Source: Chrysochromulina tobinii
Lineage: Eukaryota > Haptophyta > Prymnesiales > Chrysochromulinaceae
NCBI GenBank assembly: GCA_001275005.1
Contig: JWZX01002952.1
Coordinates: forward strand, 1-20,453
Direction: 5' to 3'
DNA: 20,453 nt
The stretch's first letter is position 1, and every line of letters begins with the position of its first letter. Position numbers and translations under genes: made by a program. The notes below the pieces were generated by a model that was not told the DNA's origin, searched no databases, and saw only the letters and a list, made by a program, of their open reading frames with translations. Shown in pieces: positions 2,642 to 17,995 of the stretch.

Positions 2642-5000
2642 ATGCCGAGCGACAACCCGTTCCACGTGCCTGTCGACGAGGAGGTATTCGCGCTGCGCGA
2701 CGAGGAGGCGCAGCGCAAGCGCGCCGAGCGTGAGCAGGCGAAGCAGCAGCATGTGTGGGAGAAGGGCGTCAAGAAGAACCCCAGCGCTGCGATGATGGCC
2801 GAGCTGGCCGGCAGCGACGGCAGCGCGGCGCTGCAGCAGTCGAAGCTCAACCTCGTTGCCGCTGCCACGCGCGATCGGCGCAAGGAGAAGGAGCACATGG
2901 GTGAGTTCATCGCCAAGAAGCGCGAGATGTTCCTGGTGCAGATGTCGCTCGACACCAAGCGCGCCGAGATCCGAAAGCTCGAGGAGCGCGCACAGCAGCG
3001 TGAGGAGGTGCGCACCGCGCCGGCAGCGTGCACGCGCTCGTCGTGTGCTTCGGGTCGCGAGGCAGCGCTGCCGCCAGACCCGGCTGCTGGTGTCGCCGCC
3101 TGCCACGCACGGCTCAGGCGCTGCCGCCGCCGACGCCGACGCCGACGCCGCCGCCGACGGCGGCGACGGCGGCTGCCTCTCTGGCGGCAGGCGCTCGCTG
3201 CAGCGGCGCGTCCATCTTGCGCGCTGGTGGCGCTGTCTCTCTGCGCGCCGCGCGCGTGCCGTGCGGTGCAGCTGCGATGTGCGGCGCCCGTGTGCGACTG
3301 TGCGCTGACGTGCTGCCGCGTGTGCGCGCCATCGTCGCAGGCGCTCAGGAAGAGCGAGCAGATGCTTGAGGAGGACGCGCTGCGCTTCGATCAGTTCCTC
3401 AAGGACAATGACCAGAAAGCGGTGCAGGCGATCAAACGGGCCGAGGCTGAGACGAAGGCCAAGTCCGAGAAAGTGCAGGAGATCAAGAAGCTCAACATGC
3501 AGATCACGCAGATCAAGAGCGAGATGTCCAAGTTCGAGGAGCAGCTCGAGGATTGCCGCAAGTACGTATGGCCTGATGGCCTCCTGTTTGCCTTCCGATT
3601 GCCTTCCGATTGCCTTCCGATTGCCTCCTGATTGCCTTCTGATTGCCTCTTGATTGCCTCTTGATTGCTTCTTGATTGCCCTCTGGTTGATCGAGGAGCA
3701 TTTAAATCTGGCCTTCCTCGACTCGAGCGTGCCTTGCATGCAAGCGCTCACCACGACGCCATCTGGCCTTCCTCGACTCGAGCGTGCCTTGCATGCAAGC
3801 GCTCACCACGGCGCCCTCACCTTCCCACAGGTACAAGGCCTTTCTCGACAAGCTCACACCGACAGAGTACTTTGAGGAGCAGGAGCGCCTGCGGCAGCAG
3901 AGGCGCGTGCTGCGCAAGCAGGCGAAGCTCGCGATCAGACAAGAGGAGGTGAACATTCAATTCGAATTGGACCGGGCGGCACGACTCGCGGCAGAGGCGG
4001 CCGAGGCGACCAAGAAGGGCAAAAAGGCGCGCAGCCGCAAGGAGAAGGAGGAGGAGGAGGCGGCGCGGCTCGCGGCCGAGAAGGCAGGCACGGCGCCCAA
4101 GCTCACGCTGGATGACGTGTCTGATGATGAGGAGCCTGAGGAGGAGAAGGAGGTGCCGATGTACTTCAAGACGCCGCAGCAGCTGCTCGATATCTTCACA
4201 GCACTCGAGGAGTCCAATCTCTTTTTGATCCAAAACTCGCAGGAGACGGAGGCGGCCCTCGAGGAGCTGCGCACCAAGTTCGCGGAGACGCGCACGCACA
4301 TGGAGGCCGAGAGCGAATCGCTAAAGGTGCAGATCGACCACCTGAAGAGCGGCATTGCCGTCGAGCGTGACCACTCCGCCGTGCTCGCCGAGCGTGCGGG
4401 CCGCCGCGGGGGCGTCGCTGAGCAGGAGCAAACTCTCGAGGCCCTCGCGCTGAAGGTGAGCGAGGTGTACCGCGCCATCTTCCCCGAGGCCGATGCGTCC
4501 GTCTCGACGCTCCAGGTACGATCTCCCTTGATCTCCCTTGATCTCCCTTGATTGCAAGTGCTCACCACGGCGCTGGATGGGCTCTCGACGCTCCAGATGC
4601 TGACCAACATTGAGGCGCAGCTCGAGGAGCTCCTCGGCGAGATCGAGACCATGCCGCAGGTACGCCGAGGACCCTTGATTGCATATTGATTGCCTTTGAT
4701 TGCCTACTGATTGGCGAGCTCGAGACGATGCCGCAGGAGGAGGTGGAGATTGCCGAGCGCGCGAAGGAGAAGGAGCGGCGCACGCGCGCGCGCGAGATCA
4801 AGCTGGAGCTCGCCATCAAGGCGCAGGAGGAGCGGATCCAGCGCTCGATACGGCGCGCGCAGGAGCCGGTCAAGCGGCGTGAGGGCAAGCCCATCATGTT
4901 CCGATCGGTGCTCCAGGTGCGCAAGAAGAAGGTCGTCGTCAAGAGTGACTACAATGAGGAGGACGACGTCAACTTTTACCTGGGCATGGGCGACGATTGA
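2642..5000 (+). CDS. CFAP100: CFAP100/MIA1-like cilia and flagella protein, five exons
   Basis: Exons 2642-3007, 3341-3561, 3831-4515, 4597-4659 and 4737-5000 join in frame to 532 residues. It starts MPSDNPFHVPVDEEVFALRD, like CFAP100 (CCDC37; Chlamydomonas FAP100/MIA1). Residues 95-200 carry the DUF4200-type coiled coil: KKREMFLVQMSLDTKRAEI, then KSEQMLEEDALRFDQFLKDN, then EQLEDCRKYKAFLDKLTP. A Lys/Glu-rich middle and an acidic stretch (DDVSDDEEPEEE) precede further coiled coil; the C-terminus ends YLGMGDD. In Chlamydomonas, MIA1 with FAP73 forms the MIA complex, which modifies inner-arm (I1/f) dynein in the axoneme. Exon borders rest on GT-AG sites and frame: the second junction uses donor GTACGT at 3562 so that KYKAFLDKL is restored. 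Intron 1 is GC-rich without the repeats seen in introns 2-4. The minus-strand 372-residue frame here is a shadow. Confidence 0.92.
3008..3340 (+). other. CFAP100 intron 1, GC-rich
   Basis: A 333-bp GTGCGC...GTCGCAG intron, phase 0. The frame stays open through it, but the translated insert is Arg/Cys low complexity and interrupts the coiled coil between QQREE and ALRKSEQ. A GCCGCCGAC/GCGGCGACG-rich stretch at 3121-3178 is self-complementary and could fold. It lacks the dispersed intron element and the flank duplication found in the other introns. Confidence 0.75.
3562..3830 (+). repeat. CFAP100 intron 2 with two introner-like copies
   Basis: A 269-bp intron, GTACGT to CCCACAG. Its first part is an array of GATTGCC units separated by TTCC, TTCT or TCTT (3596-3690). 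Then a 55-bp unit is duplicated in tandem (about 3706-3760 and 3761-3815), each copy carrying TTGCATGCAAGCGCTCACCA (3734 and 3789). The donor side GTACGTATGGCC resembles the start of the next exon, GTACAAGGCC. Confidence 0.85.
4516..4596 (+). repeat. CFAP100 intron 3, introner-like with duplicated exon end
   Basis: An 81-bp intron beginning GTACGATCTCCC. It holds three or more CTTGATCTCC units, then TTGCAAGTGCTCACCACGG (the dispersed core, from about 4551). Its last 15 bases nearly repeat the 15 bases before the donor: CTCGACGCTCCAG lies at both splice junctions. Phase 0. Confidence 0.85.
4660..4736 (+). repeat. CFAP100 intron 4 flanked by a 24-bp duplication
   Basis: A 77-bp intron beginning GTACGCC. 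Its interior is TTGATTGC / TGATTGCC repeats. The 24 bases before the donor and the last 24 bases of the intron are the same apart from two mismatches (both end ATGCCGCAG), so the exon 4 end is duplicated at the acceptor. Phase 0. Confidence 0.85.
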
Positions 5001-5340
5001 AAGTCTCCACAGACTACACACGAGACTTTAGAGACCTCGTCCGCGCGTACGTTGTGTGGGCACCACTACATCCAGGTTCAGTGGGGATGATGCAGCGCGC
5101 TCAGGACGGTCTGTATCTTGTATCTCCGCGTTCCGCGAGTCCAGCCCGGCGCGGCGAGCGTGTGGAGTTCTAGTCATTTGGCGTTGTGCGTTGCGTCCGG
5201 AGAAGATAGTTTCTTTTCTCCAGGCGCGCCGTTACGTGTGACGGGCCCCGGCGCAGGCTGCAGGCGCAGCCCCGCATTCCTACCGCACGCGGCACGGCAG
5301 CTGCTGGTGGTTGAATTCACATAGCACACGCACCGCGTGA
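5001..5340 (+). other. Gene-free spacer between CFAP100 and the GT31-like gene
   Basis: The spacer holds the CFAP100 3' UTR and the 5' flank of the glycosyltransferase gene, in head-to-tail order. The short frames here are not convincing. I see no clear polyadenylation signal, repeat or RNA gene. A membrane-anchor exon for the downstream gene could in principle lie here, but I could not find one. Confidence 0.4.
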
Positions 5341-6549
5341 ATGCACAATGGAGTGAAACCACTTTCTCCCGACACATGGCGCGCTATTGCGCGGCGCCCG
5401 ATCCCCACGAGCGGCGTCGCCGTGCTCGGCGTGTTCACGGCAGAGGAGAACGGTGCACGGCGCGAGGCGGTACGCACGTGGCTACGCGACGCCACCCATG
5501 CCAAGCCACTCCTGGCCAGGTTTGTGGCGCGCGGCGCTGGCAAAGCTCCGGTGCTCATGCGGGAGGCACGCGAGTACGGCGACGTCGTGCTGCTCGAGGG
5601 TCCCGCCGAGATGTCGCGCTCAAATGGCCCGCTGCTCACGCTCATCCTGTGGCTGGAATGCGCGCTCCGTGCATGGCCGCGTGCGGCGCTCATCGGCAAG
5701 GCGGACGATGATGTGTGGGTGCACGTGGATGCAACAGCTGCGCATCTGCAGGGCTCGCTGGATGCGCTGCGCATGCTGCCCCACGTTGCCGATCACGAGC
5801 TGCCGCTCATGTACTGGGGGCTCATGGAAACCTACGGGTGGAGCCTAACGAGCCATCGCCCGATGGGCTTCTCGTACAAGTATGGCTCCTCGCACCCCAC
5901 GTGTGTCGTGCAGAACAAGTCGGATCACACGCTCGTCGCGCCGGTGCACTTTGCAAAAGGTCCGATGTACTTCGTCTCGGCGCCGCTCGTCATGCAGCTC
6001 GTCAATGACCCAGAGTTGCGAGCATACACGACAATTGTGATCGCCTCGGCCAACTATACGGCGGGCTCGCGCCACAGGGTGTTGCCTTGGGAGGACGTCT
6101 ACACTGGCCTCGCATTGACGCGCTCGGTGGCGGGCGTGAGCGCCGCCTATGTGCACATGGGCTCGCGCGTTGCTGGCGAATCGTACGGCATCTACTCGAA
6201 GGTGGGCTTCGGGCACAACACCATCCTCTTCCACGCCAACACGAAGAGCTCGCGCAGCATGGAGCGCTACACGGCCATGCACCGTTGGGCGCTCAAGCAT
6301 CACTGCGACTCGGGCATGCCCGTACGGAGCGCCACGCTGCGCTGTGACTCGCCCGAGCTCAAATCGTGCACGGGCGCGCGGTGGAAGCGGTGCCTCTACG
6401 TGCACAATTACACCGCGTGCCCGCAGCCGGGCCCAAAGTGGCGCGGCACGGGTTCGAGCACGATGTCGATGAATCACACCGCAATAGGCAGGGCCAGCAA
6501 ACAAATCGCAAACGAGATCTCAAGTGCACGAAGTGTAAGTACAGCCTAA
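5341..6549 (+). CDS. GT31-like (beta-1,3-galactosyltransferase family) glycosyltransferase
   Basis: 402 residues, no intron needed. GT31 hallmarks in order: VAVLGVFTAEENGARREAV with RTWL (about residues 26-48, matching the family's R..IR.TW); the DXD-type metal site KADDDVWVH (about 120-128); KGPMYFVSAPLVMQ (about 206-219), matching the family's G.GY..S segment; and the WEDVYTGLAL motif (about 248-257). A Cys-rich tail follows (HHCDSG, RCDSPELKSC, YVHNYTACP). Such enzymes transfer a hexose from a UDP-sugar in the Golgi. Odd: a stop lies directly upstream of the start and no signal anchor is visible, so the N-terminus may be incomplete or lie in an unseen upstream exon. A donor-like GTAAGT at 6534 sits just before the stop, so the last residues are uncertain. 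Confidence 0.85.
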   Translation: MHNGVKPLSPDTWRAIARRPIPTSGVAVLGVFTAEENGARREAVRTWLRDATHAKPLLARFVARGAGKAPVLMREAREYGDVVLLEGPAEMSRSNGPLLTLILWLECALRAWPRAALIGKADDDVWVHVDATAAHLQGSLDALRMLPHVADHELPLMYWGLMETYGWSLTSHRPMGFSYKYGSSHPTCVVQNKSDHTLVAPVHFAKGPMYFVSAPLVMQLVNDPELRAYTTIVIASANYTAGSRHRVLPWEDVYTGLALTRSVAGVSAAYVHMGSRVAGESYGIYSKVGFGHNTILFHANTKSSRSMERYTAMHRWALKHHCDSGMPVRSATLRCDSPELKSCTGARWKRCLYVHNYTACPQPGPKWRGTGSSTMSMNHTAIGRASKQIANEISSARSVSTA

Positions 6550-6919
6550 GTACAGCCTATAAGAACTCAGGGGTCTCGTCCATGGTCTCGTCGCACAGAA
6601 AATCGCGATAGCCATAGCCGGATAGCGCGAAGCGGTTCGAAGACAGCGTCGTTCCCACGTTGCGGGGCTCAGCGGGGCTCTCTAGCGGCATAGCAGAATT
6701 CCCCCGGCGTGCCTACACCATGATCGCGATCCGCGATCGCTGCCGTTCCAAAATTGTCTTCGGAAAGTCGTTACTCAAAAAGTTAAACTGAATGTTCCAT
6801 AAACAGAAAACAGCGTTACACGAGGGTTGCCGACTGCCGCGTGAGACGTCCCACGAGTTGCGTGGTCGACCATTTGCGTCCGGGGCGGAGACGTCAGGCC
6901 ACTCCCCGTGACGGCCTGC
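6550..6919 (+). other. Gene-free spacer
   Basis: About 370 bp between the GT31-like gene and the next plus-strand gene. It contains small direct repeats (TAAGTACAGCC at 6534-6557; GCGGGGCTCA at 6662-6680) and overlapping palindromes GATCGCGATC and GCGATCGC at 6722-6740. An AT-richer patch at 6749-6810 may hold the upstream gene's 3' end. No gene is supported. Confidence 0.4.
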
Positions 6920-9900
6920 ATGAGCTCGTTGTACCCCACGGGGGGTGCCAGCTCCGCGCGAACATCAGGGTCGACGACGTCACGGGCGACGGGCGAGTCA
7001 TCGAGCCGCAAGGCCGCCCTGGCGATACGGCGCCCTCGGCGATACGGCTTCTTGAGCAAGCAATCGACAGATGCCCTCGCAGCCGCCGGGCGCAACGATG
7101 AGGATGAGGATGCCGATGCCTACGGGCCCATGCCATCGTATGGACCGCCATCAGAGAAAAGGCATCCGACACGTTCGATTAGCAGCGCAGCAAACTCGAC
7201 TACTAGTAGCGCTCCGAGCTCAGCTCGCTCGCGGAGCTCAAAGTTACCGCTGCTCATCGCCTACGATGAGGTGCAGGGGATGCAGCGAGCGCACTGGAAG
7301 CACGCGCCGCCCGCGTCTGAACCCGAATACCTCCCGAACGACCTGGTGACGAGTCGGATAGACAAGGCCAAGCGGGAGCGCGCGCTTCTGGAGACGCGGG
7401 TGCGGGACATGGTGGTTGCAGCGATGGAAAACCCGGATCCGATCGTAGTGGTCAGCCCACGGGCGTCGCCACGCACACAGCCGGCCGCCCCTGTTCTGCC
7501 CACGCCACCGCCACCGCCCGCCCCAGCGCCTGTGTTCACGGCGCCGCAGGCACCCACGCTACCACGCAAAGCCGTCACCGTGCGCAGGGGCAAGTACGAC
7601 GCCAGTCAAACCTTCGTACTCGGCGGTGCCGATGACGCCGGCGACCTGCTTTCGGAGCTTGCCGACTTTGACCGCCTCTTGAAATCCAGTGCTCGGCGCT
7701 CCACCCAGCAGTCGAAGCAACCGAGTCCGAAGGGGTCGCCGCGCCACAAGCATGGCGCACTTGAGGCGGCTCCTGCCGCAGCTGCGACTGAGGCGGTTGC
7801 GCCGTCAGCCCAGGACGAGAAAGCGCACTCGAACCCCAGAATCACGAGCGCGAACGTCAACAAGCGCGTCCGTTGGAAGGCTGACCGCAAGGTGGCGCAC
7901 CAACGATGGCGGACGCTCGGATGGCGTTTGGCAGTGCTGCGGGCTGCGGGCGAGAAAGGGATCTCTTGGACGAGTCTGCTGGTGCAGGAAGATGCGGCCG
8001 AGCTCGCCTCGGTCCTCGGTCAACGCACGGGGAGGAAAGCCCCCTCCCTAGTGCCTCGCAGGATTGGAGAGCTGAGCGTGGCTACGAAGAGTGCGGATGT
8101 CAACGACTTGATCGCGCAGGTGGGCGCTCGCGAAACCATTCGATCACGGTGGATCCTGGCGAAGCAGAAATTGAAGGTGACGCGTGCATTCCACCGCCCC
8201 GAGACCCCACTGGTCATCAAGGCGAAGCGCACGTGGAAAGACAGCGAGGAGCCCGAGCCCGTCATGGCTTCGTCGAGCACCTTTGATGCGTCGCATCATC
8301 GAGGGGCACGCCGTGCGCACCTGGCGCTCAAGCTTGCCGCCAACATGAGCGACTCCGAGGACGCGAGTGCCTTCTTCAGCACTTGCGTGCAGGAGCTCTC
8401 GCGCATGCGCTACTCGATTGCTGCGCCCGTGGAGGCGGCCGCGTCCGTGTACAGGGACGAGCCGCAGACGAGCGGCGACATTTGGTCCAAGGATCAGGCG
8501 GCGAGGCGCGAGTCCCAGAGCTTGATGCTCCGGTACGAGGACGAGGACGAGGACGAGGTTGGGCGCTCCAAGCACGTCCACTTTACGGGCATCGAGTTCC
8601 GAGGCAACAGGAAGAGGGACCTGAAGCACACGCTGCCGAATGTGCACTGGCTCCCTCCGAGGCACGTGGCGATCCAACGCACGCATCGGCTCGTGCCCGA
8701 CTCTCACTTTGCCCTGGCAGCAGTCAACGGGTCGGATTGGCCAAAGGCTGATGGCGGCGCATGGCGCCAGTATGTGCGCGAGCGCCGGACTCTCGACAAG
8801 AATGCCGCGTCGATTGCAGCCGCGGAGGCCGCGGCGGCAGAGGAGGCCGCCGACCTTCAAAAGTCCCTGGACAAGGTCACGAGCGGGCTCGCGATGAGAG
8901 CCGGACAGATGCGTACGTCCGAGGTGTCACTCAAATGGGGGGACGGGAGTGGCTTTGGCCGCTTTGTACTCGATGAGAGTTTGCTCACACGTGCATTCGG
9001 CACGGAGGGCGAGGCCGACGAAGGGAGCGACAGCGGCGACGACGCCAACGAGGACGACGACTTTGTCTACCGGTCTGAAGCAGCTGGGGAAGGGGGTGGG
9101 GGGGGAGATGGAAAGGACGGAGATGGTGATGGTGATGGAGATGGTGACGGCCGTTCACGTGGAGGCAATCAACATGACGGAAGCTCACGTGACGGCAGTT
9201 CACATGGCCGCAGTTCACGTGACGGCCGTTCACGTCGTGGCGATGGCGGCAAAGCAACTGCTACTCCGAAGCACCTAGGCACGCTAGCGGAGGACGATGC
9301 GATCGCCTGGGGAGACCCGGCCGTGGCCGAGGGGATGGCGACGCATGCCGGCATGCCCTTGCCTCCCGATTTTTGGGGTGCTGCCAAAGGAACCAGCACA
9401 GCCACAGGCGGCGGCACGCGCTTCCGAGGCGGCGGGTGCGAGGTCAAGCATTACCCGCCGCCGCCACCTGAGCCAAACTATGGGATTGAGACCGGCTTTG
9501 CGCAGCTCAAGGATACCAGTTTCGACCCCGACGACGACCTCGAATGGATGCACAAGTCGCCTACATGCTGGACGCCGCGCAAGCAGGGCCCGTTGGCCTG
9601 CGACGCTGAGGACTTGTTCGACAACCATTCGGCCGTTGCGACGGCGTGGAAGCATGACTGGGCAGGCACGACGTGCGGAGCCGCCGAGGCCGCCCACCGC
9701 AAAGACGGGATCGCGATGGAGAAGCAGCGCATCTTCGGCAGAAAGGGCCTCACTCCGGAGTGCTGCTACGAGCTCCATAAGATCTGCGAGCGGTGGTACC
9801 CGTTGCTCTTTGAACACGGGGAGCTCCTTGATGGCCTCTGAGTGCGCCTTGAACCGCCTCGATTGCGCCCGAGTGCCTCCTTCATCAGGTACCCGGTGCT

Positions 9901-11008
9901 CGTGCGCATCTTTTGCTACTACTCGACCATCGACGCCGACGTGAGCCGCATGGTGCATTGCATGTCGCACATGGGCTTCATGCTCTTCGTCGACGAGTCG
10001 GGCCTCTGTGACTTACATCCAAACGAGGAGACGATGCGCGCCGTCCAGGTGCCCACTTCGCGCCACGCCAAGGGGCGCGGCGAGGACGGCTGGGAGTTGC
10101 TCTGGATCTCCGTCAACGAGTCCGCGGGGAGCAAGGAACAGAAGAGCTGGAACCTGAAGGCACGGCTCACGCGCAATGAGTTCATCGAGATCCTCGTGCG
10201 CGCCGCCATCGACGACGATGACGACGGGCCTCAGAATCCCGCGGAGATGCCGCGCGTACTGCAGGAGCTCTTCGAGGACATGATGAACGTCGGGCGCCAG
10301 CCGCATGCCGGCATGGTCCTGCACGACCGGAACTCCTTTTTGCGAACCTACTGCTACCGACGCGAGGTGTGCGCGGTCCTCGCACACCACGAGAAGACGC
10401 TCCGCTGCATCTACACCGTCTACTCGGAGCTGGGCTCGGGCGCCGTCGACCTCAAGGGCTCCTCCGGCCTCATGGGGGTCCATGAGTTCCTCAACTTTGT
10501 GCACGACATCGGCATCATTCGGGAGATCGGCCACCGCACCACCTCTGCCATCTTTGGCATGTCGCGCATGCTCACCTTCAACGAGGCCTCCAGCAAGGCC
10601 CAGAATTCGACTCTGACGCAGCTCACCTACGAGGGCTTTCTCGAGGCGGTGGTGCGCCTGGCGCTCGTCAAGGCGCTCCCGTCGGACCGGGACATGCGCA
10701 AGCACGGCTTCCAATTCCCGGGCGAGTTCTTGGGCGCGATGCTCGACACGGGCGGGTACGCGTACGAGAGATGGGTGGACTCGGCGCGCAGCCGGATGCG
10801 CAAGGGACAGGGAGATCCGATCTGGCGGCGCGTGGACATGCTCTGCCTGCTCTTCGTGGGCGTGATGCAGTTTGGCATCGAGAAGAGCAAAAAGGGCGCG
10901 CTGCTGCTGCTGCGCGGCTCGCCGGACGAGGTGCTCACCAAGGAGGAGGTTATGCGCTTCTGGAAGTCGCCCACCCCTTTGGTCTTCGAGAGGCAAACAT
11001 CGTCTTAG
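6920..11008 (+). CDS. Large conserved-looking algal protein with one intron
   Basis: Exons 6920-9795 and 9889-11008 join through donor GTACCC and acceptor TTCATCAG to 1331 residues. The join restores KICERWYPVLVRIFCYYSTI, while reading through meets a TGA at 9839. The first ATG is 6920 (MSSLYPTGG), in weak context; an upstream exon is possible. The N-terminal 400 residues are Ser/Pro/Lys-rich and disordered-looking, with a Pro run (PTPPPPPAPAP). A basic helical stretch follows (KRVRWKADRKVAHQRWRTLG). An Ala/Glu helix and a Gly/Asp/Arg-Ser low-complexity linker (about residues 715-780) precede the C-terminal half. That half has helix pairs such as RNEFIEILVRAAI, MGVHEFLNFVHDIG and TYEGFLEAVVRLAL, like degenerate EF-hand or flagellar-type algal proteins, but lacks canonical DxDxDG loops. 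Function unknown; a cytoskeletal or ciliary role is only a guess. Confidence 0.8.
9129..9239 (+). repeat. Imperfect 15-bp coding repeats
   Basis: GATGGTGATG runs (9121-9150) pass into imperfect 15-bp units of the type GTTCACGTGACGGCC or CAGTTCACATGGCCG (9150-9238). They encode Gly-Asp and Ser-Ser-Arg-Asp-Gly repeats. Several units contain the palindrome CACGTG, which probably follows from the repeat. Confidence 0.7.
9796..9888 (+). repeat. 93-bp intron flanked by a direct repeat
   Basis: The intron starts GTACCCGTTGCTC and the next exon starts GTACCCGGTGCTC, so one side is a near-copy of the other. The interior has CTCGATTGCGCC, related to the TGATTGCC units of neighbouring genes' introns, but no copy of the GCTCACCACGG core. 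The length is a multiple of three, but it contains an in-frame stop. Confidence 0.8.
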
Positions 11009-11160
11009 ATGCCCCGTCTCACACCGCCCCCGTGCGGTACCCGCCATGGTGTTAATGATTATGTGTGAATGTGAATGTGCGCAGTGTGATTTCTCCCGTA
11101 ACTAACACGTTCACAGACCGTGCTGTACTTGTGAATTCGGACGTGTTGTGTGTATTCATA

Positions 11161-14100
11161 ATGAATTCGGACGTGCACGAACGTGCAAAGAATGGGGACG
11201 CTCGGTTTCTTCCACTCGGCCACCGTCGCATGTCCCTCTTTGGGCTGCGCATCCCAGAGCTCAACCCGCCTCGTGCCAAGAAGACGCCCGCGCCCGCGTT
11301 CGAGGCCTCCGAGTTCACGCTCTGCCAAGACCCAAATCGGCCGCGCACCGATGACGATAAGGAGCAAGGCGAGGATATCCAGAAGCCTGAGGGCTGGGGC
11401 TTTCACGACGACAGCCCGGATTTCACGAATGGATGTCTCGAGAAGATGGAGCTCGAGCGCGAGCTGATGGATGCGACAGCACCGGAGCTGTATGCGCTCG
11501 AGGATATCCAGAAGCCGGAGGGCTGGGGCTTTCTCGAAGGGCACGATCTGGGCGTGCATCCCAGACCGACTCCAGGACCACTCGCGTTCTCTGTAAATGA
11601 AGAGGATGGTACATCAGCCAGCCCTCTCGAGTTTCGCGCCATGGAGCACGAAGCAGTCCACATGCAACGGAGCAATGCCAGTATGTCATGCGGTTGTACC
11701 AACGCACTGGCATGCGGTTTGCACAGCGCACCTCCGTGGCAGCACTATCAACGCCTCCCTTTGAGTGGCGCACAGAGCTCGACCTCTGGCGATGCCGCAG
11801 CCGTCTCAACCTCCACCACAGCCGCCAGCAACTCCTCACTGCCTGGGGCCGAGCTGGTCAGCACCTCCTCACTGCCTGGGGCCGAGCTGGTCAGCAACTC
11901 CTCACTGCCTGGGGCCGAGCTGGTCAGCAACTCCTCACTGCCTGGGGCCGAGCTGGTCAGCGAGTCCGACCTTCGAATGCTCGCCGATGCGCAGGCAGCC
12001 GGCGACGCCTTTGCCGAGCAGCGCCGCATGATTGAAGACCTGATGAAGGACCCGGGCGTCTTTGGAGGACTGGTTGCTTTGCAAGTGGAGCACAACCGAT
12101 ACAGTCTTCCAGGCTCGCCGATGTACGAACGATTCGTAGCCTCCAGGGCAGGCGAGCCGCCGCTGCCGTTGCGCATCGTGTTCCATGGCACTGCCGCTGA
12201 GAACATCGAGCCTATCTTGGCAAATGGAATGGACCCGTCCAGGCGTGGTATGCACGGCCAACATTATGGGCCGGGAGAGTACTTCGCGACGCGCGCGCTT
12301 ACGAGCGTGCGTTTCGCGCTTAGGGGTGCACGGGATTGGGCCTCGACGCCCAGGCTACTCGTCTTCCTTGTGTCGGAGCAGGAGGTTCAGCCTCGGGCCC
12401 CTGACATTGTCGTCGTCAACGATGTGTCGCGCGAGCTGCCCCTGGGCACCGTGACATTTCAAATGGTGGGTGCTGACGTGATGGCGTTAGATGAGATGGC
12501 CCGACAGGCGAAGGCCGCAGCGGAACGCGCGAAGGAACGCGCGAAGGCCGCAGCGTGGAAGGCCATGCAAAAGGCCCGCATCATGCAAGGGCTCATTCGG
12601 GGTGATCTCTATGAAGCGAGCGAGATGTACGCGGCCGTGATGCAATCGAGCGAGCCGAGAACGGCCGAGGCCTTTCAGTCCTCAAAACAGAAAGCCTTTC
12701 AGTCCTCAGTGCCACGCTGGGCGCATGAGCTGCGTTTCTATCTGCAAGATGTCGAGCGCGAGTGCGTCGTGGCGCTCTTCCCCGGTGTGATTCCAGTAAG
12801 GCACGACTCCATTACTGGTATCTTCCGCGACGATGTGAGCTTCAAGTGGCCACCGACGGCATGGGACATGAGTCAGTCTGAGTCCTCTCCCTCGGCAGGC
12901 AAGCGGCGTCTCGACGACTCCGACGACACCGGACGGGACGACAACGATGCAGATGTCCTCAAGGAACAAGCGGCCAAGCTCGAGGCGGTGGCGGTGGACG
13001 CCGAGGCCCGAGCGCAAGCCGCCAGAGCGCACGCCGCCAATGCGGACTGGCGGACGTTGGCATCGGGTGGCGGCCTGGGCGGCGGCCTGGGCGGCATCAT
13101 GGGCGGCGGCCTGGGCGGCGGCCTGGGCGGCGCCATGGGTATCAACCCATGGGCGATGCATGCCCCGCTTGCGATGATACGCGGTCCACGCCCTGCAAAC
13201 TGCCTAGATGGCTGCGTCAACCCGGCAGCCGGCCTGCATCATCGCATTTGCCCCAATCGAGGCATTCACTCGACGGTGCCCCTGCACACTCAAGTGCCAC
13301 CTTCACACCCCCAAGTGCCACCTTCACACCCCCAAGTGCCACCTTCACACCCCCAAGTGCCACTTCACACTCAAGTGCCGATAGGACGTCACGTCGTGAG
13401 CCGCAGCTCCGAGGGCCATCAGGCGTCATCAGGCGTCATCGGGCGTCATCAGGCGTCATCAGGCGTGAGCCGCAGCTCCGAGGGCCATCAGGCGTCATCA
13501 GGCGTCATCGGGCGTCATCAGGCGTCATCAGGCGTGAGCCGCAGCTCCGAGGGCCATCAGGCGTCATCAGGCGTCATCGGGCGTCATCAGGCGTCATCAG
13601 GCGTGAGCCGCAGCTCTGATGAGGCGCTGCGACGGGCGCAGGGAGGGCGACACGCGCCTCGGTCGACTGTCGTAGCCGTGATGAAGGAGCTCAAGCGGTT
13701 TCATCACGGCTCATGGGGCGGCTCGGGGCGCTGTGTTGAGCGCGAAGCGACCGATGGCATGGCCGACGATACCGACGCGGACGACGACTTTCGCGCCCAT
13801 CTCCTCGACGACGCCGACGTGCTCCGCTGGCGCGTGGAGATGCGCCTTCCACCGGACTCGCTGCTCGGGGCACAGCTCGCTGCGCATGCCGCGCGCTGGG
13901 GTGGGCGCGCGGTGGTGGAGCTTGAAGTGCTCTTCGGGGACGACTTTCCCGCGTCGCCGCCCTTTGTGCGTGTCGTCTCGCCGCGCTTCGCCTTCCACAC
14001 TGGCCACGTCACCGTGGGCGGCTCGATCTGCATGCAACTCCTCACGACAAGCGGCTGGGACAGCTCCTTCACCGTGGAGGCTACCCTTGTGATGGTACGT

Positions 14101-14217
14101 GATGCCATGCTGAGTGGTCATGGCGCGCTCGATAGCTCGCGTGCTCACGTGCCATATTCAGAGGCAGAGGCAAGGCACGCGTTTCGCCGTGTGGCTCAGC
14201 AGCATGGGTGGGTGTGA
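11161..14217 (+). CDS. PARP-type ADP-ribosyltransferase fused to UBE2Q-like E2 domain
   Basis: 1018 residues from the ATG at 11161 (MNSDVHERA); the frame is open further upstream without an ATG, and MSLFGLRIPE at 11230 is an alternative start. Residues 335-430 are a PARP catalytic core: LRIVFHGTAAENIEPILANG with His-342, then YGPGEYFATRALTSVRFAL with Tyr-374. The third triad position is not a clear Glu, which suggests mono-ADP-ribosylation or loss of activity. An Ala/Lys coiled coil, Gly-Leu repeats and Pro/His and Ser/Gly minisatellites link to a C-terminal E2 fold (about 840-1018): VELEVLFGDDFPASPPFVRV, then GHVTVGGSICMQLLTTSGWD with candidate catalytic Cys-957, as in UBE2Q. PARP-UBC fusions are, from memory, known in fungi and some protists. 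Probably links ADP-ribosylation to ubiquitin signalling. No intron is required, unlike its neighbours. Confidence 0.85.
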   Translation: MNSDVHERAKNGDARFLPLGHRRMSLFGLRIPELNPPRAKKTPAPAFEASEFTLCQDPNRPRTDDDKEQGEDIQKPEGWGFHDDSPDFTNGCLEKMELERELMDATAPELYALEDIQKPEGWGFLEGHDLGVHPRPTPGPLAFSVNEEDGTSASPLEFRAMEHEAVHMQRSNASMSCGCTNALACGLHSAPPWQHYQRLPLSGAQSSTSGDAAAVSTSTTAASNSSLPGAELVSTSSLPGAELVSNSSLPGAELVSNSSLPGAELVSESDLRMLADAQAAGDAFAEQRRMIEDLMKDPGVFGGLVALQVEHNRYSLPGSPMYERFVASRAGEPPLPLRIVFHGTAAENIEPILANGMDPSRRGMHGQHYGPGEYFATRALTSVRFALRGARDWASTPRLLVFLVSEQEVQPRAPDIVVVNDVSRELPLGTVTFQMVGADVMALDEMARQAKAAAERAKERAKAAAWKAMQKARIMQGLIRGDLYEASEMYAAVMQSSEPRTAEAFQSSKQKAFQSSVPRWAHELRFYLQDVERECVVALFPGVIPVRHDSITGIFRDDVSFKWPPTAWDMSQSESSPSAGKRRLDDSDDTGRDDNDADVLKEQAAKLEAVAVDAEARAQAARAHAANADWRTLASGGGLGGGLGGIMGGGLGGGLGGAMGINPWAMHAPLAMIRGPRPANCLDGCVNPAAGLHHRICPNRGIHSTVPLHTQVPPSHPQVPPSHPQVPPSHPQVPLHTQVPIGRHVVSRSSEGHQASSGVIGRHQASSGVSRSSEGHQASSGVIGRHQASSGVSRSSEGHQASSGVIGRHQASSGVSRSSDEALRRAQGGRHAPRSTVVAVMKELKRFHHGSWGGSGRCVEREATDGMADDTDADDDFRAHLLDDADVLRWRVEMRLPPDSLLGAQLAAHAARWGGRAVVELEVLFGDDFPASPPFVRVVSPRFAFHTGHVTVGGSICMQLLTTSGWDSSFTVEATLVMVRDAMLSGHGALDSSRAHVPYSEAEARHAFRRVAQQHGWV
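11371..11540 (+). repeat. In-frame 129-bp-spaced duplication (EDIQKPEGWGF)
   Basis: A segment coding EDIQKPEGWGF occurs at 11371-11403 and again at 11500-11532, with near-identical DNA. The spacing is 129 bp (43 codons), so the frame is kept. No GT/AG pair makes the interval an obvious intron; it is best read as a duplicated peptide motif. Confidence 0.7.
11828..11960 (+). repeat. 33-bp coding minisatellite (SLPGAELVSNS x4)
   Basis: Four nearly identical 33-bp units, starting at about 11832, 11865, 11898 and 11931, encode 11-residue repeats SLPGAELVSNS just N-terminal to the PARP domain. Copies differ at one or two bases, so the expansion is recent. Confidence 0.9.
13063..13138 (+). repeat. 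Gly-Leu coding repeat
   Basis: GGCGGCCTGGGC units encode GGGLGGGLGG twice, separated by Ile-Met and ended by Ala-Met. This is a flexible glycine-rich linker between the PARP half and the E2 half. Confidence 0.75.
13291..13379 (+). repeat. 21-bp coding minisatellite (VPPSHPQ)
   Basis: Units begin at 13291, 13312, 13333 and 13354 (CAAGTGCCACC followed by TTCACACCC), coding VPPSHPQ repeats in the linker before the E2 domain. The period is a multiple of three. Confidence 0.85.
13396..13613 (+). repeat. 69-bp coding minisatellite
   Basis: GTGAGCCGCAGCTC starts at 13396, 13465, 13534 and 13603: three full 69-bp units plus a partial fourth, each coding about 23 residues (SRSSEGHQASSG, VIGRHQASSG). 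Each unit contains inner repeats of GGCGTCATCA. The unit carries donor-like GTGAGC and acceptor-like CCGCAG, but excising 13396-13613 would shift the frame, so it reads as coding. Confidence 0.85.
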
Positions 14218-15058
14218 ACGGGTGGGGGTGAACGGGTGGGTGCGGACTTCACTGCAAACCAGCCAACCTCTCCGTGAGAGCTAGCGGTGATTGCGTTCAC
14301 AGAGCGGGTGACGCCTGGGGTGATTGCGTTCACAGAGCGGTCGACGCCTAGGGGGACGGAAGCAGCTGCTGGTCTATGAAGTGACGCCTGGGGGCTGGGG
14401 AAGCAGCTGGTCCATAGTGACTGTCATGCGAAGATGCGGTTCACGTGTTACGCCTACCGCGCCGAGGCCATGCCAATAGGACGTCACCTGTGAAGAGGAG
14501 TGTCAAGCGCCGTGGTGAGCGCTTGCATGCCTACCGCGCCGAGTCCATGGCCTCTGATGAGCTCTGATGAGCTCTGATGAGCTCTGATGAGCTCTGATGA
14601 GCTCTGATGAGCTCTGATTGCCTACCGCGCTGAGGCCATGGCCGAGGCGCGCTGCCCGGGAGCTGGCGGACAACGAAGACGGGCAGTCCGAACCTCCCGC
14701 CCGATATCTTATTTAGAAGGAGACTGCTGGAACGTACGCGGTAGGGTACATGCGGAGCGGTTGTGATCGCCTGTGACGATCAACGACCATGAAGCCATGC
14801 CGAGCTCGGGCACGATGGGTTGCTATTATCCGGTCATGATTATCGTATCCTCAACCTTATATTTGAAGATTGAAAATCGAAGTACGTCATTGGTTAAATT
14901 GGTTTTTTATTGTTTTTCAACAACGAAGCGAATCGACTACCTGAGTCCACACGGGCCGGCACATCAGGGCCACGACGACAGCCCCCGGACGGACTCCGTG
15001 TAAACAGTAAAGCGTGACGGGACCCCCTCCGGTGCAACCCTTTTCCTGAACCGAACGC
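14218..15058. other. Gene-free convergent intergenic region, repeat-rich then AT-rich
   Basis: The region lies between the convergent ends of the PARP-E2 gene and the GT90-like gene. It holds duplicated GTGATTGCGTTCACAGAGCG (14287, 14320), CGACGCCTAGGG-like units, repeated GAAGCAGCTG (14358, 14399), a separately listed repeat cluster, and an AT-rich stretch at about 14815-14945 (TTGGTTTTTTATTGTTTTTC). The 76-residue frame at 14773 has no recognisable feature. No RNA gene was recognised. Confidence 0.5.
14452..14643. repeat. Intergenic introner-like copy with triplicated flank
   Basis: A 22-24-bp unit (GCCTACCGCGCCGAGGCCAT and variants) occurs at 14452, 14529 and 14620. Between the first two lies the dispersed element in minus orientation, from GCATGC to CTCTTCACAG, followed by GTGACGTCC exactly as an intron acceptor would be. 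Between the last two are about six 10-bp units CTCTGATGAG (14552-14618). No coding frame joins across it, so this is either a non-genic insertion or part of an unrecognised or decayed gene. Confidence 0.7.
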
Positions 15059-17995
15059 TCAGCGCGGCGCCTTCGGTCGGTAACTGCCAGATCGCCACTG
15101 CTCGTACGCCTCGGCGGCGAGCGCGCTCACGTTGCTCGTACCCATGAAGCGCTCGGGCACGAGGCGCGCAAAGCGCCGGTACAAGCCCCGCATGCCGGCC
15201 GTCGAGTTGCAATCTCGCGCGACCTCGTGCGCGGGCGGGATGGTGACGAATCCCTTGACGAATCCCTCGTCGGCCTGGCCGTTGGTGACGAATTCCTCGT
15301 CGGCCTGTCCGAAGAATTGGGACGCGCAGCCGCCGCGCGTGCTGCGAAGGTTTCCCCACAGGCACTCTCGTTCCGAAGGATTGATCGGGCTGGCACGGTG
15401 AGCCCGGGCGCATGCCTCTGCCGCAGTCTGATCAGGGAGGCCATCAGTGGTCACCAGAGGCAATCAGAGCTCGGGCGCATGCTTCTGCCGCAGTCTGATG
15501 ACGCGAAGGGGAGGCGCAATCCTGTGGCCATCACAGGTGGCAATCAAGTGGCCATCAAGTGGTCATCACCTGCGTCCTCCAATCGAATAGAGAAGCGTAC
15601 GAGCTCAGCAATCGGTGCCAATAGGACGTTACAAACTCAGGGTCAAGCACGTGGTAAGCGTAGTCGCCGCTCCGGCTCGCCACCTGTGGGGAAACAGGAG
15701 AGTCGAGCGCCGTGGTGAGCACTAGGTGAGCACTTGCATGCCGACGGCCACGTGGCCGGCGAGGTTTCGTCAATAGAGGTTCGTCACCAGTGCTGCGTCC
15801 TTGCGCGCTTGTGCTTGTGCCAACACGGCGCCTAGGTCGTCCACGGCGCGCGATGAGGCGAAGTGCTCGCTTTCGGACAGGCCCGCGTGCCAGAACTGCT
15901 CGTAGACTCGCGGGCAGCTTGCGCCTTCACAGCCAGCTGCATGGCTGCCTAGGAGCGCGAGGCGCAGAGGAGAGTCGAGCGCCGTGGTGAGCACTTGCAT
16001 GCTTCGGAGCGCGAGGCGCAGAGGAGAGGCGAGCGCCGTGGTGAGCGCTTGCATGCTTCGGAGCGCGAGGCGCAGAGGAGAGGCGAGCGCCGTGGTGAGC
16101 GCTTGCATGCTTCGGAGCGCAAAGGGAGGCTCGTTCACAGCTGGCCCTTCACACCTCGTAGCACGAGGGAGGAGCAGAGGAGAGTGTACTTGAAGCCCAC
16201 AGCGAAGGAATGGCCGGGCAGCGAGAGTAGCAGCTGCCGATCGCACCTGCCTCGGGAGGTCATCAGAGGTCATCATACGCAATCAGAGGTAATCAGGGTC
16301 AAACAGACGCAATCAAAGGCCAACGTCTATATTCACCACGCCTCGGGCGGCACCCCATCAGAAAGCGAGCAGTGCGCCCCACAGAGCTTCACGTCGGCTT
16401 GGACGCGTGGGGGCAGCGGCACGGTGCCGCTCACGATCGCATCCGAGTAGGCGCGCCGCTGCACCTGTGGGGAACGTGGAGAGTCGAGCGCCGTGGTGAG
16501 CACTTGCATGCCGCTCACGATCGCATCCGAGTAGGCGCGCCGCTGCACCTGCATGCAATCATGAGCGAGAAGCAATCAGGGAGATGCAATCCGGGAGATG
16601 CAATCCGGGAGATGCGATCACGTGTGTCTCGCCGCCTCGCCAGAAGAGAGAGCGCTGCTTGGACGCGTACCTATTGAGGGTCGCAATCATATGCAATCAG
16701 AAGTCATCCTCAGAGTGCATCAGAGTCCATCATCGGGGATCATCAGAGGTAATCGGAGGCGCACGGGAGCCGTCGCCCAGCGCGGTAGATGGCCTCTCGC
16801 TCCACCGGCCAGCCCCGCGGCACCTGTGGGGAGAGGCAAGGGATGGGCGCCGTGGTGAGCACTTGCATGCTCGCTCTCGCTCCACCGGCCAGCCCCACGG
16901 CACCGAGTACGCGGCGGCCGAATCGGCATCAATGAGGTTCGTCAAGCGGCCGAATCGGCATCAATGAGGTTCGTCAAGCGGCCGAATCGGCATCAATGAG
17001 GTTCGTCAAGCGGCCGAATCGGCATCAATGAGGTTCGTCAAGCGGCCGAATCGGCATCAATGAGGTTCGTCAAGCGGCCGAATCGGCATCAATGAGGTTC
17101 GTCAAGCACCGAGAACGCGGCGGCCGAATCGGCATCAATGAGGTTCGTCAAGTACGAGAAGGGCGCGAACGAAAAGTCCGGCATCATGAGATCTCGATGC
17201 TCATTGGAGACGCGGGCGTTGGAGAGCAGAGGCACCAGGCCGCACCTGTGCGACAAGCAGTGAGGCAATCAGCATGCAATCAGGCCTCATCAGTGCAATC
17301 AGGCCTCACCTGTGCGACAAGCAGCGAGGCCAGCAGGGAGACAACCAGGTAACAACCAGGAATGCCATCAGCGACGCAAGCAGCGACGCAAGCAGCGACG
17401 CAAGCAGCGACGCAACAGGAGGCCAGTCATCCCAAAAATTTGGGAGGCCAGATTATCCCAAATTTGGGAGGCCATGCAGACATCCGCGCAAGCACGGAGG
17501 CACTACGGCGCACCAGTCGTAGCGAGCGAATTGGTAGGGCTGGTCGTGCGGGTTGAGCACGGCGGTGAAGTTTGGCAGCGGCGGCAGCACGCCCTCGTCG
17601 ATGCGCTGCTGCACCGCCGCGAGCTGCTGGATCGCGGCCACCGGTCGGCCCGGCCAGTGGCGCATTGGTCCGCGCTCGTCGCCTGGGTCCTGCAGGATCA
17701 TCGCCTGCAGCCGACCATGGACGCTGCGCACCAGCATCATGTTGGTGAGCACGGAGCGCGGCCCTTGAGAGCGCACGCGGCACAGAGTGGCGTCCACGTC
17801 CGGGATGCGCCGGCGCGCGATGTCGCAATCCTTCTTCTGCCGCCGCCACCACGAGACGTCACGATCGAGGTTGCGCAGCACGCACTCGCGCGCGGCCGCG
17901 GTGGTCGCCGGCGACCACTGCCCGGCCGCATCGTACGGCAGCGCGCACGGCAGCGGCGGCAGCGGCGGCCGACGGCCGTGAGGCTTCTTCGCCAT
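15059..17995 (-). CDS. CAP10/GT90-like glycosyltransferase, nine exons
   Basis: Assembled by hand, 5' to 3': 17995-17514, 17245-17110, 16823-16765, 16670-16622, 16464-16337, 16246-16155, 15948-15788, 15683-15570, 15427-15059. All junctions are GT-AG and in frame; 529 residues. The start has a strong Kozak context (AGAATGG). GT90-like motifs in order: LPNFTAVLNPHDQP (140-153), LMMPDFSF (180-187), KQRSLFWRGGETH (230-242, the FWRG signature), QRRAYSDAI plus ADVKL (244-269), LPGHSFAVGFKYTLLCSSLV (294-313), VYEQFWHAGLSESEHF (330-345), and YWHRLLSSYASLF (390-402). Family members move glucose, xylose or related sugars in the secretory pathway; substrate unknown. No signal peptide is seen (MAKKPHGRRPP), so an earlier exon may be missing. 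Exon 7 could start 12 bp later, and exon 5 has an exact upstream duplicate. The 122-residue tail is not recognised. Confidence 0.82.
15428..15569 (-). repeat. GT90 intron 8 with a copy of the next exon's start
   Basis: A 142-bp intron (GTGATGACC to GATCAG). Its middle holds a near-copy of the first 30-odd bases of exon 9 (ACTGCGGCAGAAGCATGCGC), itself preceded by TCAG, so two in-series acceptors precede two copies. The upstream copy soon meets a stop. The rest is TGATGGCC/TGATTGCC repeats. Confidence 0.8.
15684..15787 (-). repeat. GT90 intron 7, introner-like
   Basis: A 104-bp intron. The dispersed core is at 15703-15742 in the gene's sense direction, with an extra partial internal duplication (TAGTGCTCACC), then a pyrimidine run and CCCCACAG. 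The donor GTGACGAA resembles the next exon's start GTGGCGAG. Confidence 0.85.
15949..16154 (-). repeat. GT90 intron 6, three tandem introner-like units
   Basis: A 206-bp intron holding the core three times in sense orientation (15974-16002, 16030-16056, 16083-16110), period about 54 bp, each followed by CTCTCCTCTGCGCCTCGCG. The sequence after the donor (GTGTGAAGGGCCAGCTG) recurs at the start of exon 7 (CTGTGAAGGCGCAAGCTG). Confidence 0.85.
16247..16336 (-). repeat. GT90 intron 5, TGATTGC/TGATGACC repeats
   Basis: A 90-bp intron beginning GTGAAT and ending CGAGGCAG. It is mostly units of the type TTTGATTGCG, CTGATTACC and TGATGACCTC. It has no copy of the GCTCACCACGG core. Confidence 0.75.
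16465..16621 (-). repeat. GT90 intron 4, introner-like plus a 39-bp exon copy
   Basis: A 157-bp intron from GTGATC to CCCCACAG. It contains GATTGCATCTCCC repeats, then at 16510-16548 an exact 39-bp copy of the first 39 bases of exon 5 (16426-16464), preceded by GCATGCAG. The dispersed core follows at 16484-16511. The copy could act as an alternative exon. Confidence 0.85.
16671..16764 (-). repeat. GT90 intron 3, TGATG/TGATTGC units
   Basis: A 94-bp intron beginning GTGCGCCTCCGATTACC; the next exon begins GTACGCGTCCAAGCAGC, a diverged direct repeat. The interior is CTGATGATCC / TGATTGCA units. It ends CAATAG, an unusual pyrimidine-poor acceptor. Confidence 0.75.
16824..17109 (-). repeat. GT90 intron 2: introner-like element plus 32-bp array
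   Basis: A 286-bp intron (GTGC to CCCCACAG). At 16915-17106 it has six near-perfect 32-bp tandem copies of a unit matching the end of exon 2 (coding LTNLIDADSAA; parent copy at about 17121-17152). It next has a near-copy of the start of exon 3 (16871-16910, with PWGW where the exon reads PRGW), then the dispersed core (16845-16870). No AG lies in the 32-bp unit, so the array has no internal acceptor. Confidence 0.85.
17246..17513 (-). repeat. GT90 intron 1 with palindromes and short tandem repeats
   Basis: A 268-bp intron from GTGCGCC to GTCGCACAG. It holds two CCCAAA...TTTGGGAGGCCA copies (palindromes at 17431-17444 and 17457-17468), four 12-bp units AGCGACGCAAGC (17368-17415), GATTGCC repeats, and two copies of the acceptor region GCTTGTCGCACAGGTG, giving alternative 3' sites. 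The donor GTGCGCC resembles the exon 2 start GTGCGGCC. Confidence 0.75.

Follow-up and report, generated by a model that had tools for sequence, protein, structure and literature searches.

Results

Two genes of the window carry the same repeat in their introns

The window analysed here is one entire contig of the haptophyte Chrysochromulina tobinii (JWZX01002952.1, 20,453 nt), from an assembly of 53 Mb in 2,253 contigs. A CFAP100-type gene lies on its plus strand (2642–5000), with exons at 2642–3007, 3341–3561, 3831–4515, 4597–4659 and 4737–5000. The spliced product is 532 aa long and contains a DUF4200 domain (PF13863, 5e-38). In alignments with six relatives, including two products of MMETSP transcripts, there is no gap at any of the four junctions; a relative in Chrysotila carterae is 65% identical. 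On the minus strand, a GT90 gene occupies positions 15061–17995, with modelled exons at 17995–17514, 17245–17110, 16823–16777, 16670–16622, 16464–16337, 16246–16155 and 15924–15788, and the next one starting at 15683; its C-terminal end was read by eye. The spliced product matches PF05686 (3.5e-14) over a segment spanning its junctions. Elsewhere the contig encodes a TPR protein on the minus strand (18297–20447), with an array of tandem 126-nt units of 42 residues each with 12 register positions, a long frame on the plus strand (11065–14217) with PARP-like and E2 ubiquitin-conjugating-like domains and several minisatellites between them, and a protein (9842–11005) 46% identical to one of Chrysochromulina rotalis, the only named relative among 12 matches.

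The original prediction was that a dispersed, introner-like element recurs in sense orientation within the introns of these two genes. All nine sites that it listed are present on the strands given. Full 24-nt cores, GCATGCAAGYGCTCACCACGGCGC (at most 4 mismatches), were found at eight of them (3736, 3791 and 4550 on the plus strand; 15979, 16033, 16087, 16488 and 16847 on the minus strand), and a half core at 15707. The nine sites follow the direction of their host gene, and the naming of the hosts as CFAP100 and GT90 agrees with the domain matches above. That most copies precede CCCACAG is true when counted per intron (four of six: CFAP100 intron 2 and GT90 introns 2, 4 and 7), but not per copy (four of nine). 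A tenth core and the target duplication described below had been missed.

In CFAP100, intron 2 (3562–3830) contains a minisatellite, a pair of 55-nt units with one core apiece, and CCACAG. The first core (3736–3759, 1 mismatch) is the tandem neighbour of the second (3791–3814), which is followed by CCACAG at 3825–3830. Upstream of both, GGCCTTCCTCGAC at 3710–3722 may be what is left of an exon 3 duplicate (compare 3837–3849), with a score of 11 that is under the control threshold. Intron 3 (4516–4596) has a mirror form: it brings a GTACG 5' splice site, repeats and a core (4550–4573), and its 3' end (4583–4596) repeats the upstream exon end (4502–4515). The same mirror form, without a core, was recognised by eye in intron 4 (4660–4736), where 4713–4736 repeats the exon end 4636–4659.

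In GT90 (minus strand), intron 2 (16824–17109) consists of 32-nt repeats, a left copy, a core (16847–16870) and CCACAG. The left copy (16874–16903, 30 nt, 1 mismatch) reproduces the exon start at 16794–16823. The 32-nt tandem repeat (16914–17105) copies the preceding exon end, TTGACGAACCTCATTGATGCCGATTCGGCCGC, and exon sequence has therefore been amplified within the intron. Intron 4 (16465–16621) is a minisatellite followed by a left copy (16512–16548, 37 nt) identical to the exon start 16428–16464, a core (16488–16511) and CCACAG. Three tandem cores (15979–16002, 16033–16056 and 16087–16110) are found in intron 6 (15925–16154), which is without CCACAG and has an uncertain 3' splice site. Intron 7 (15684–15787) has the half core (15707–15720), in which the second half alone is intact, beside a partial repeat of itself, and CCCCACAG. 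The tenth core (14507–14530, minus strand), located some 530 nt downstream of the apparent stop codon of GT90, is followed by TCACAG and then GT.

The core is dispersed in the genome and often precedes a putative 3' splice site

Searching the assembly with up to 3 mismatches returned at least 2,363 cores (1,142 and 1,221 on the two strands), a lower bound like all our genome-wide core counts, and no match to the reversed pattern. Within the window, the 14-nt half-core (up to 3 mismatches) occurs 24 times, for 9.0 expected and a maximum of 16 in 100 shuffles. The surroundings of the core were read in a set of 280,602 bases in 40 merged pieces, made of the window, 30 loci round exact cores, and 20 stretches of 10 kb drawn at every 28th contig from C14 to C546. 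This set contains 71 distinct cores (up to 4 mismatches), eight of them within the evenly spaced 200 kb; as it is enriched for cores, per-site rates given below are not genome rates.

CCACAG was present within 60 nt after 47 of the 71 cores and absent after 24. The next two bases in the 47 cases were GT (40), GC (4), GA (2) or GG (1). In the whole assembly, an exact half-core followed after 5–30 nt by CCACAG was found 698 times, and never with the reversed controls. The next bases were GT in 590 of the 698, GC, GA or GG in 74 (42, 19 and 13, by hand count from the printed list), and did not start with G in 34. The main form is a core, a pyrimidine tract and CCACAG, in many cases preceded by a second copy of the bases with which the next exon begins. 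The core brings a branch-point-like CTCAC, which we take to correspond to the YTNAY motif, and the tract and AG follow. In the 27 clean cases defined below, the putative branch A lies 39–61 nt from the 5' site and 22–38 nt from the AG. As predicted, the repeat is common to unrelated genes (JmjC, phosphatase, SNF2, GST, CFAP100 and GT90, all with core and CCACAG). Between GCATGCAAG and CCACAG, no inverted repeat was visible by eye, and some introners are also without one.

Two further occurrences were recorded. Several tandem half-cores, GACGCTCACCACGGCGC, on the minus strand of L002 at about 2136–2198 (contig C8) would be translated, in the frame inferred for the stretch, into DAHHGA repeats, as though intron sequence had turned coding. 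At the very end of L051 (4495–4543), a contig from a virus collection, a core is followed by a pyrimidine tract and CCACCACAG, then GTGAG. Three tested ORFs of this contig had no Pfam match, and it may be algal rather than viral.

A long duplicate of the target probably supplies one splice site

The original prediction mentioned no visible terminal inverted repeat; a strong terminal signature is present all the same, a long target duplication, which can serve as one splice site. Duplicates were detected by aligning, with core words masked, the 60 nt that follow the AG and the 120 nt that precede the core, for the 53 cores with any 3'-splice-like motif (the 18 of 71 without motif were left out). 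The cut-off was the 99th percentile of 1,060 unpaired cross-contig pairings. A duplication above control was found for 32 of 53 copies, and in 27 of these 32 the duplicate begins at the first base after the AG. For the other 21 copies no duplicate above control was seen; some are array members, and others may be old or have short duplicates, which the detection threshold also conceals.

In the 27 clean cases, the duplicates are 24–44 nt long (median 32), have a median identity of 94%, with three perfect pairs, and lie 0–20 nt from the core. The bases preceding the two copies agree in 22 of 27 cases at position -1, as for the usual G before GT, in 13 at -2, in 12 at -3 and in 8–10 farther out. 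Since the agreement fades upstream of -1, most of CCACAG belongs to the element. The left copies (n = 29) start with GT in 23 cases, with GC in three and otherwise in three (one GA, two misaligned or array cases); G is found at +5 in 22 of 29, versus 61% of 49 exon copies. An unbiased search for duplications with sharp edges was dropped because minisatellites and a one-base edge ambiguity overwhelmed it, and a scan anchored at AG-GT was adopted. Duplicates were found at 28 of 557 GT preceded by CAG, versus 75 of 25,852 GT after non-AG triplets, in a hit list that still includes tandem repeats and counts some duplicates again from the reverse strand.

Longer duplicates tend to go with shorter gaps (rho -0.48, p = 0.011, n = 27), and the smallest observed distance from 5' site to core is 25 nt. 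With an element so short, this minimum requires a duplicate of about 25 nt or more, and the long duplications may in part reflect survivorship.

Mirror introns, bare cores and a second family

Ten of the 24 cores without CCACAG stand upstream of another core in an array. Two cores (C65:9741 and window 4550) belong to mirror introns, which bring GCACG or GTACG and repeat the upstream exon end at their 3' end; C40:6894 shows a 32-nt repeat of the mirror kind, cut off by the end of the locus. Elsewhere, bare cores lie between duplicates of 24 and 37 nt without splice motifs (C40:12666/12714 and C114:3993/4068), in units of 48 nt (C40:12666–12737) and 75 nt (C114:3993–4091) whose duplicates are exact or near-exact. 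The nine window sites lie in introns of the two gene models; genome-wide, the predicted confinement to introns has these bare cores as apparent exceptions. Together with the mirror form, the bare cores disfavour a copying rule that requires an AG end, and a pure lariat model, in which the copied piece must end at AG, is weakened.

A second intron family, TGATTGCCTCCCTCATCAGGT, has 1,697 matches in the assembly (up to 1 mismatch; control 0). In the 280,602-base set, nine of its 24 3' ends have a duplicate above control, 18–41 nt long and starting at base 0 in all nine. This family is a minisatellite, (CTGATNRCC)n, ending in CTCATCAG, with the same left-duplicate anatomy; examples are C266:7833, C546:1–10000 near 630–705, and L017 near 1269 and 2729.

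Dispersed short elements in high copy number, with target duplications and a co-opted splice site, are what known introners consist of (PMC9860276), and a non-autonomous DNA transposon of this usual type, moved by a transposase not yet found, would explain them. However, the duplications (24–44 nt, and 18–41 in the second family) compare with 3–9 bp in the introners characterised in the available text of that report, no inverted repeat is visible by eye at the ends, the 5' end varies, and two unrelated sequences have the anatomy in common. We consider such a transposon improbable.

Copies of one contig resemble each other beyond the core

Tails and 12-nt heads were more alike within than between contigs (49 copies; 74 versus 1,088 pairs, at least 300 nt apart). 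Among 500 label shuffles, the observed value was reached four times for tails and never for heads, and the five closest heads among 1,366 pairs were all from the same contig. In C88:9169, the 13 nt before the core are foreign to its own exon. Extended to 14 nt, this stretch agrees at 13 of 14 positions with the left copy of C88:11523, which derives from an exon. C546:2765 and 3248 have 16–18 nt in common with C546:108, where part of this segment looks exon-derived (the duplicate score at 108 is 16.0, at threshold). From these traces, copying seems to begin at no fixed position within the donor intron. The data point to copying between introns of one contig, in a few contigs (C546, C88 and C8); we infer the direction of copying between neighbours.

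Predicted excision regains conserved proteins, and empty sites exist

Left copy plus element measure 65–93 nt in 27 of 29 cases, and 142 nt in two array cases. Their lengths modulo 3 distribute as 10/4/15, so that retention would cause a frameshift in 19 of 29. After excision in silico, Pfam matches run across the junction for JmjC (1.7e-16), dual-specificity phosphatase (1.2e-24), SNF2 (1.1e-26) and GST C-terminal (8.9e-10) domains; the fifth excised-junction peptide had no Pfam match. Conserved proteins are regained by removing duplicate and element in CFAP100, GT90, JmjC, phosphatase and SNF2, and judging by these reading frames the element copies are probably spliced out as introns. With such recovery of proteins and 2,363 cores dispersed genome-wide, the introner reading of the original prediction is supported.

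Five joined exon flanks were compared with the assembly. Apart from the sites themselves and C977, a near-identical copy that is occupied, they matched two phosphatase paralogues and one SNF2 paralogue, which represent two of the five junctions. All three paralogous sites are uninterrupted across the junction and have a single target copy; with 83–89% identity they are paralogous rather than allelic. Nothing further in the assembly matched the remaining three junctions. Separately, the contig pairs C29/C977, C101/C235 and C609/C1003 have the same or nearly the same element tails, and in C29/C977 the exons match as well; these pairs are possibly haplotypes or recent duplicates.

Could the core be a conserved branch-point and 3' splice signal that does not move, with the duplications being ordinary tandem exon duplications? 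Its CTCAC is indeed at a normal branch-point distance, and introns without core have the same anatomy. Yet the core stands exactly between two copies of local exon sequence, paralogues have neither element nor duplicate, donor-specific sequence is carried along, and cores without splice motifs exist. Moreover, an identity over 24 nt exceeds the known needs of a branch point. Given the empty sites, donor traces and bare cores, we reject the view of the core as no more than a branch-point signal, or of the duplications as ordinary tandem ones, and give the combined reading hardly any credit.

Most cores are called in sense orientation by a codon model

Four reading frames of the window (2,299 codons) served to train a codon model, which then gave the correct strand for GT90 exon 1 and for each of six pieces of the TPR gene, kept out of the training. 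The model placed 44 of the 71 cores in sense and nine in antisense orientation, with 18 undecided. Six of the nine antisense calls are sense by gene model, duplication or tandem neighbour: window 16488 and 15979 are within introns of the GT90 model, C40:8997, C65:9032 and C88:9953 have a sense duplication above control, and C88:10035, at threshold, is the tandem neighbour of C88:9953. The three antisense calls without sense support (C6:10626, C546:1208 and window 14507) are each followed by CACAG and GT on their own strand.

Discussion

The family described here is an introner system of a haptophyte with an unusual scar. Its best explanation, to which we attach a probability of about 0.6, is an introner-type element that duplicates its target and spreads by repair-coupled copying. 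The anatomy, the regained proteins and the empty paralogous sites are directly visible; for the process itself, our preference, at moderate confidence, goes to copying coupled to repair rather than to a transposase or an RNA route.

A piece of some 40–60 nt (core with CTCAC, pyrimidine tract, CCACAG) would be copied into an exon, about 20–45 nt of the target being duplicated at insertion. If the duplicate begins with GT or GC, its upstream copy would act as 5' splice site and the element would provide branch point and 3' splice site. Left copy and element would then be removed together, and the reading frame regained exactly. In mirror insertions, the element would bring the 5' splice site, and the AG would be taken from the duplicated exon end. 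The process may start with two offset nicks or a staggered break in the exon; filling in of the overhang would generate the duplication, and the gap would be bridged by copying a core-bearing intron, often a nearby one of the same contig. Against this route counts the exact AG end in 27 of 32 copies with a duplication, which needs shared GT/GTRCG microhomology or selection. Also on the negative side are the 21 of 53 copies with no duplicate above control, the 24 of 71 cores lacking CCACAG, empty sites that are paralogous instead of allelic, and the small number of contigs with a donor signal.

The same exactness would follow directly if the 3' part of an excised intron RNA were reverse-transcribed at a nicked exon. 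Such target-primed copying, of the SINE/LINE-like kind, would leave a 3' end fixed at AG, while the 5' end and the length of a long target duplication would vary. The main form has this signature: 27 of 32 copies have an exact 3' end, the element reaches a variable distance into donor sequence on its 5' side, and duplication length varies; a strong sense bias also fits. The mirror and bare-core forms do not have it, as they carry duplicates though not ending at AG, and likeness is strongest within a contig, which is unexpected for free RNA. We regard the RNA route as unlikely and repair-coupled copying as probable.

A wider form of the proposal, which we put forward tentatively and at less than even odds, dispenses with the mobile element. 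The back part of an existing intron, in many cases from the same gene, would be copied into a broken or nicked exon, with 20–45 nt duplicated, by a cellular intron-creating pathway of repair (or RNA-templated) type without transposase. Two unrelated intron sequences would have spread alike, so the process would be general and the sequence incidental.

How does the family compare with described systems, as far as the available text of the reports goes? The introners of Micromonas, Aureococcus, Symbiodinium, Chrysochromulina and other organisms (Gozashti et al. 2022, PMC9860276) are likewise near-identical introns at unrelated positions with target duplications. They also bring one splice site and co-opt the other, the Symbiodinium family bringing the 3' and the Chrysochromulina family the 5' site. 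Their duplications are of 3–9 bp, and of 4 bp in the Symbiodinium and Chrysochromulina families, against 24–44 nt here; many families have inverted repeats, whereas none was seen in ours. By these descriptions, the variable 5' extent and the apparently local donors also set our family apart. Fungal introner-like elements, as described in PMC9860276 (see also PMC4457414), are similarly sequence-similar introns at new positions, with a bias to genes, and those of ascomycetes are described as lacking target duplications and inverted repeats (PMC9860276). In Amoebophrya, also a marine protist, repeated intron families have direct repeats of 3–5 nt at their borders (PMC7789003), but with inverted repeats of 8–20 nt and mostly non-canonical splice sites, unlike the GT/GC-AG sites and long duplicates without visible inverted repeat of our family.

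The neointrons of Daphnia pulex (PMC4202315), with a mean length of about 78 nt, similar to that found here, repeat the adjacent exon end at the opposite intron end in the same way, and were explained by staggered double-strand breaks. The accessible text gives repeats of 4–12 bp, compared with 24–44 nt here, where in addition the inserted piece belongs to a family repeated thousands of times. In tandem exon duplication gains (potato RdRp, PMC4974935; Drosophila, PMC2891723), a duplicated exon stretch can also give splice sites, but our family has a dispersed foreign piece between the copies. For 213 introns of all classes, repeats close to the ends are reported as 4–30 bp, with a mean of 11.4 (PMC11782384). 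On these published values, our target duplications are longer than those of introners (3–9 bp) or Daphnia (4–12 bp). A literature search covering passages of freely available papers found no account of the core family or of introner duplications of 24–44 nt.

The origin of new spliceosomal introns is an old question, and few systems have been caught in the act. Here candidate gains number in the hundreds within one genome, and their scars can still be read, with exact junctions, the two copies of the target and sometimes the likely donor. Because long variable duplications and local donors misfit the transposon model, which accounts for most introners, the system can separate models based on DNA transposition, repair and RNA. 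It also suggests that a target duplication can give, besides a splice site, the minimum spacing that a working intron needs.
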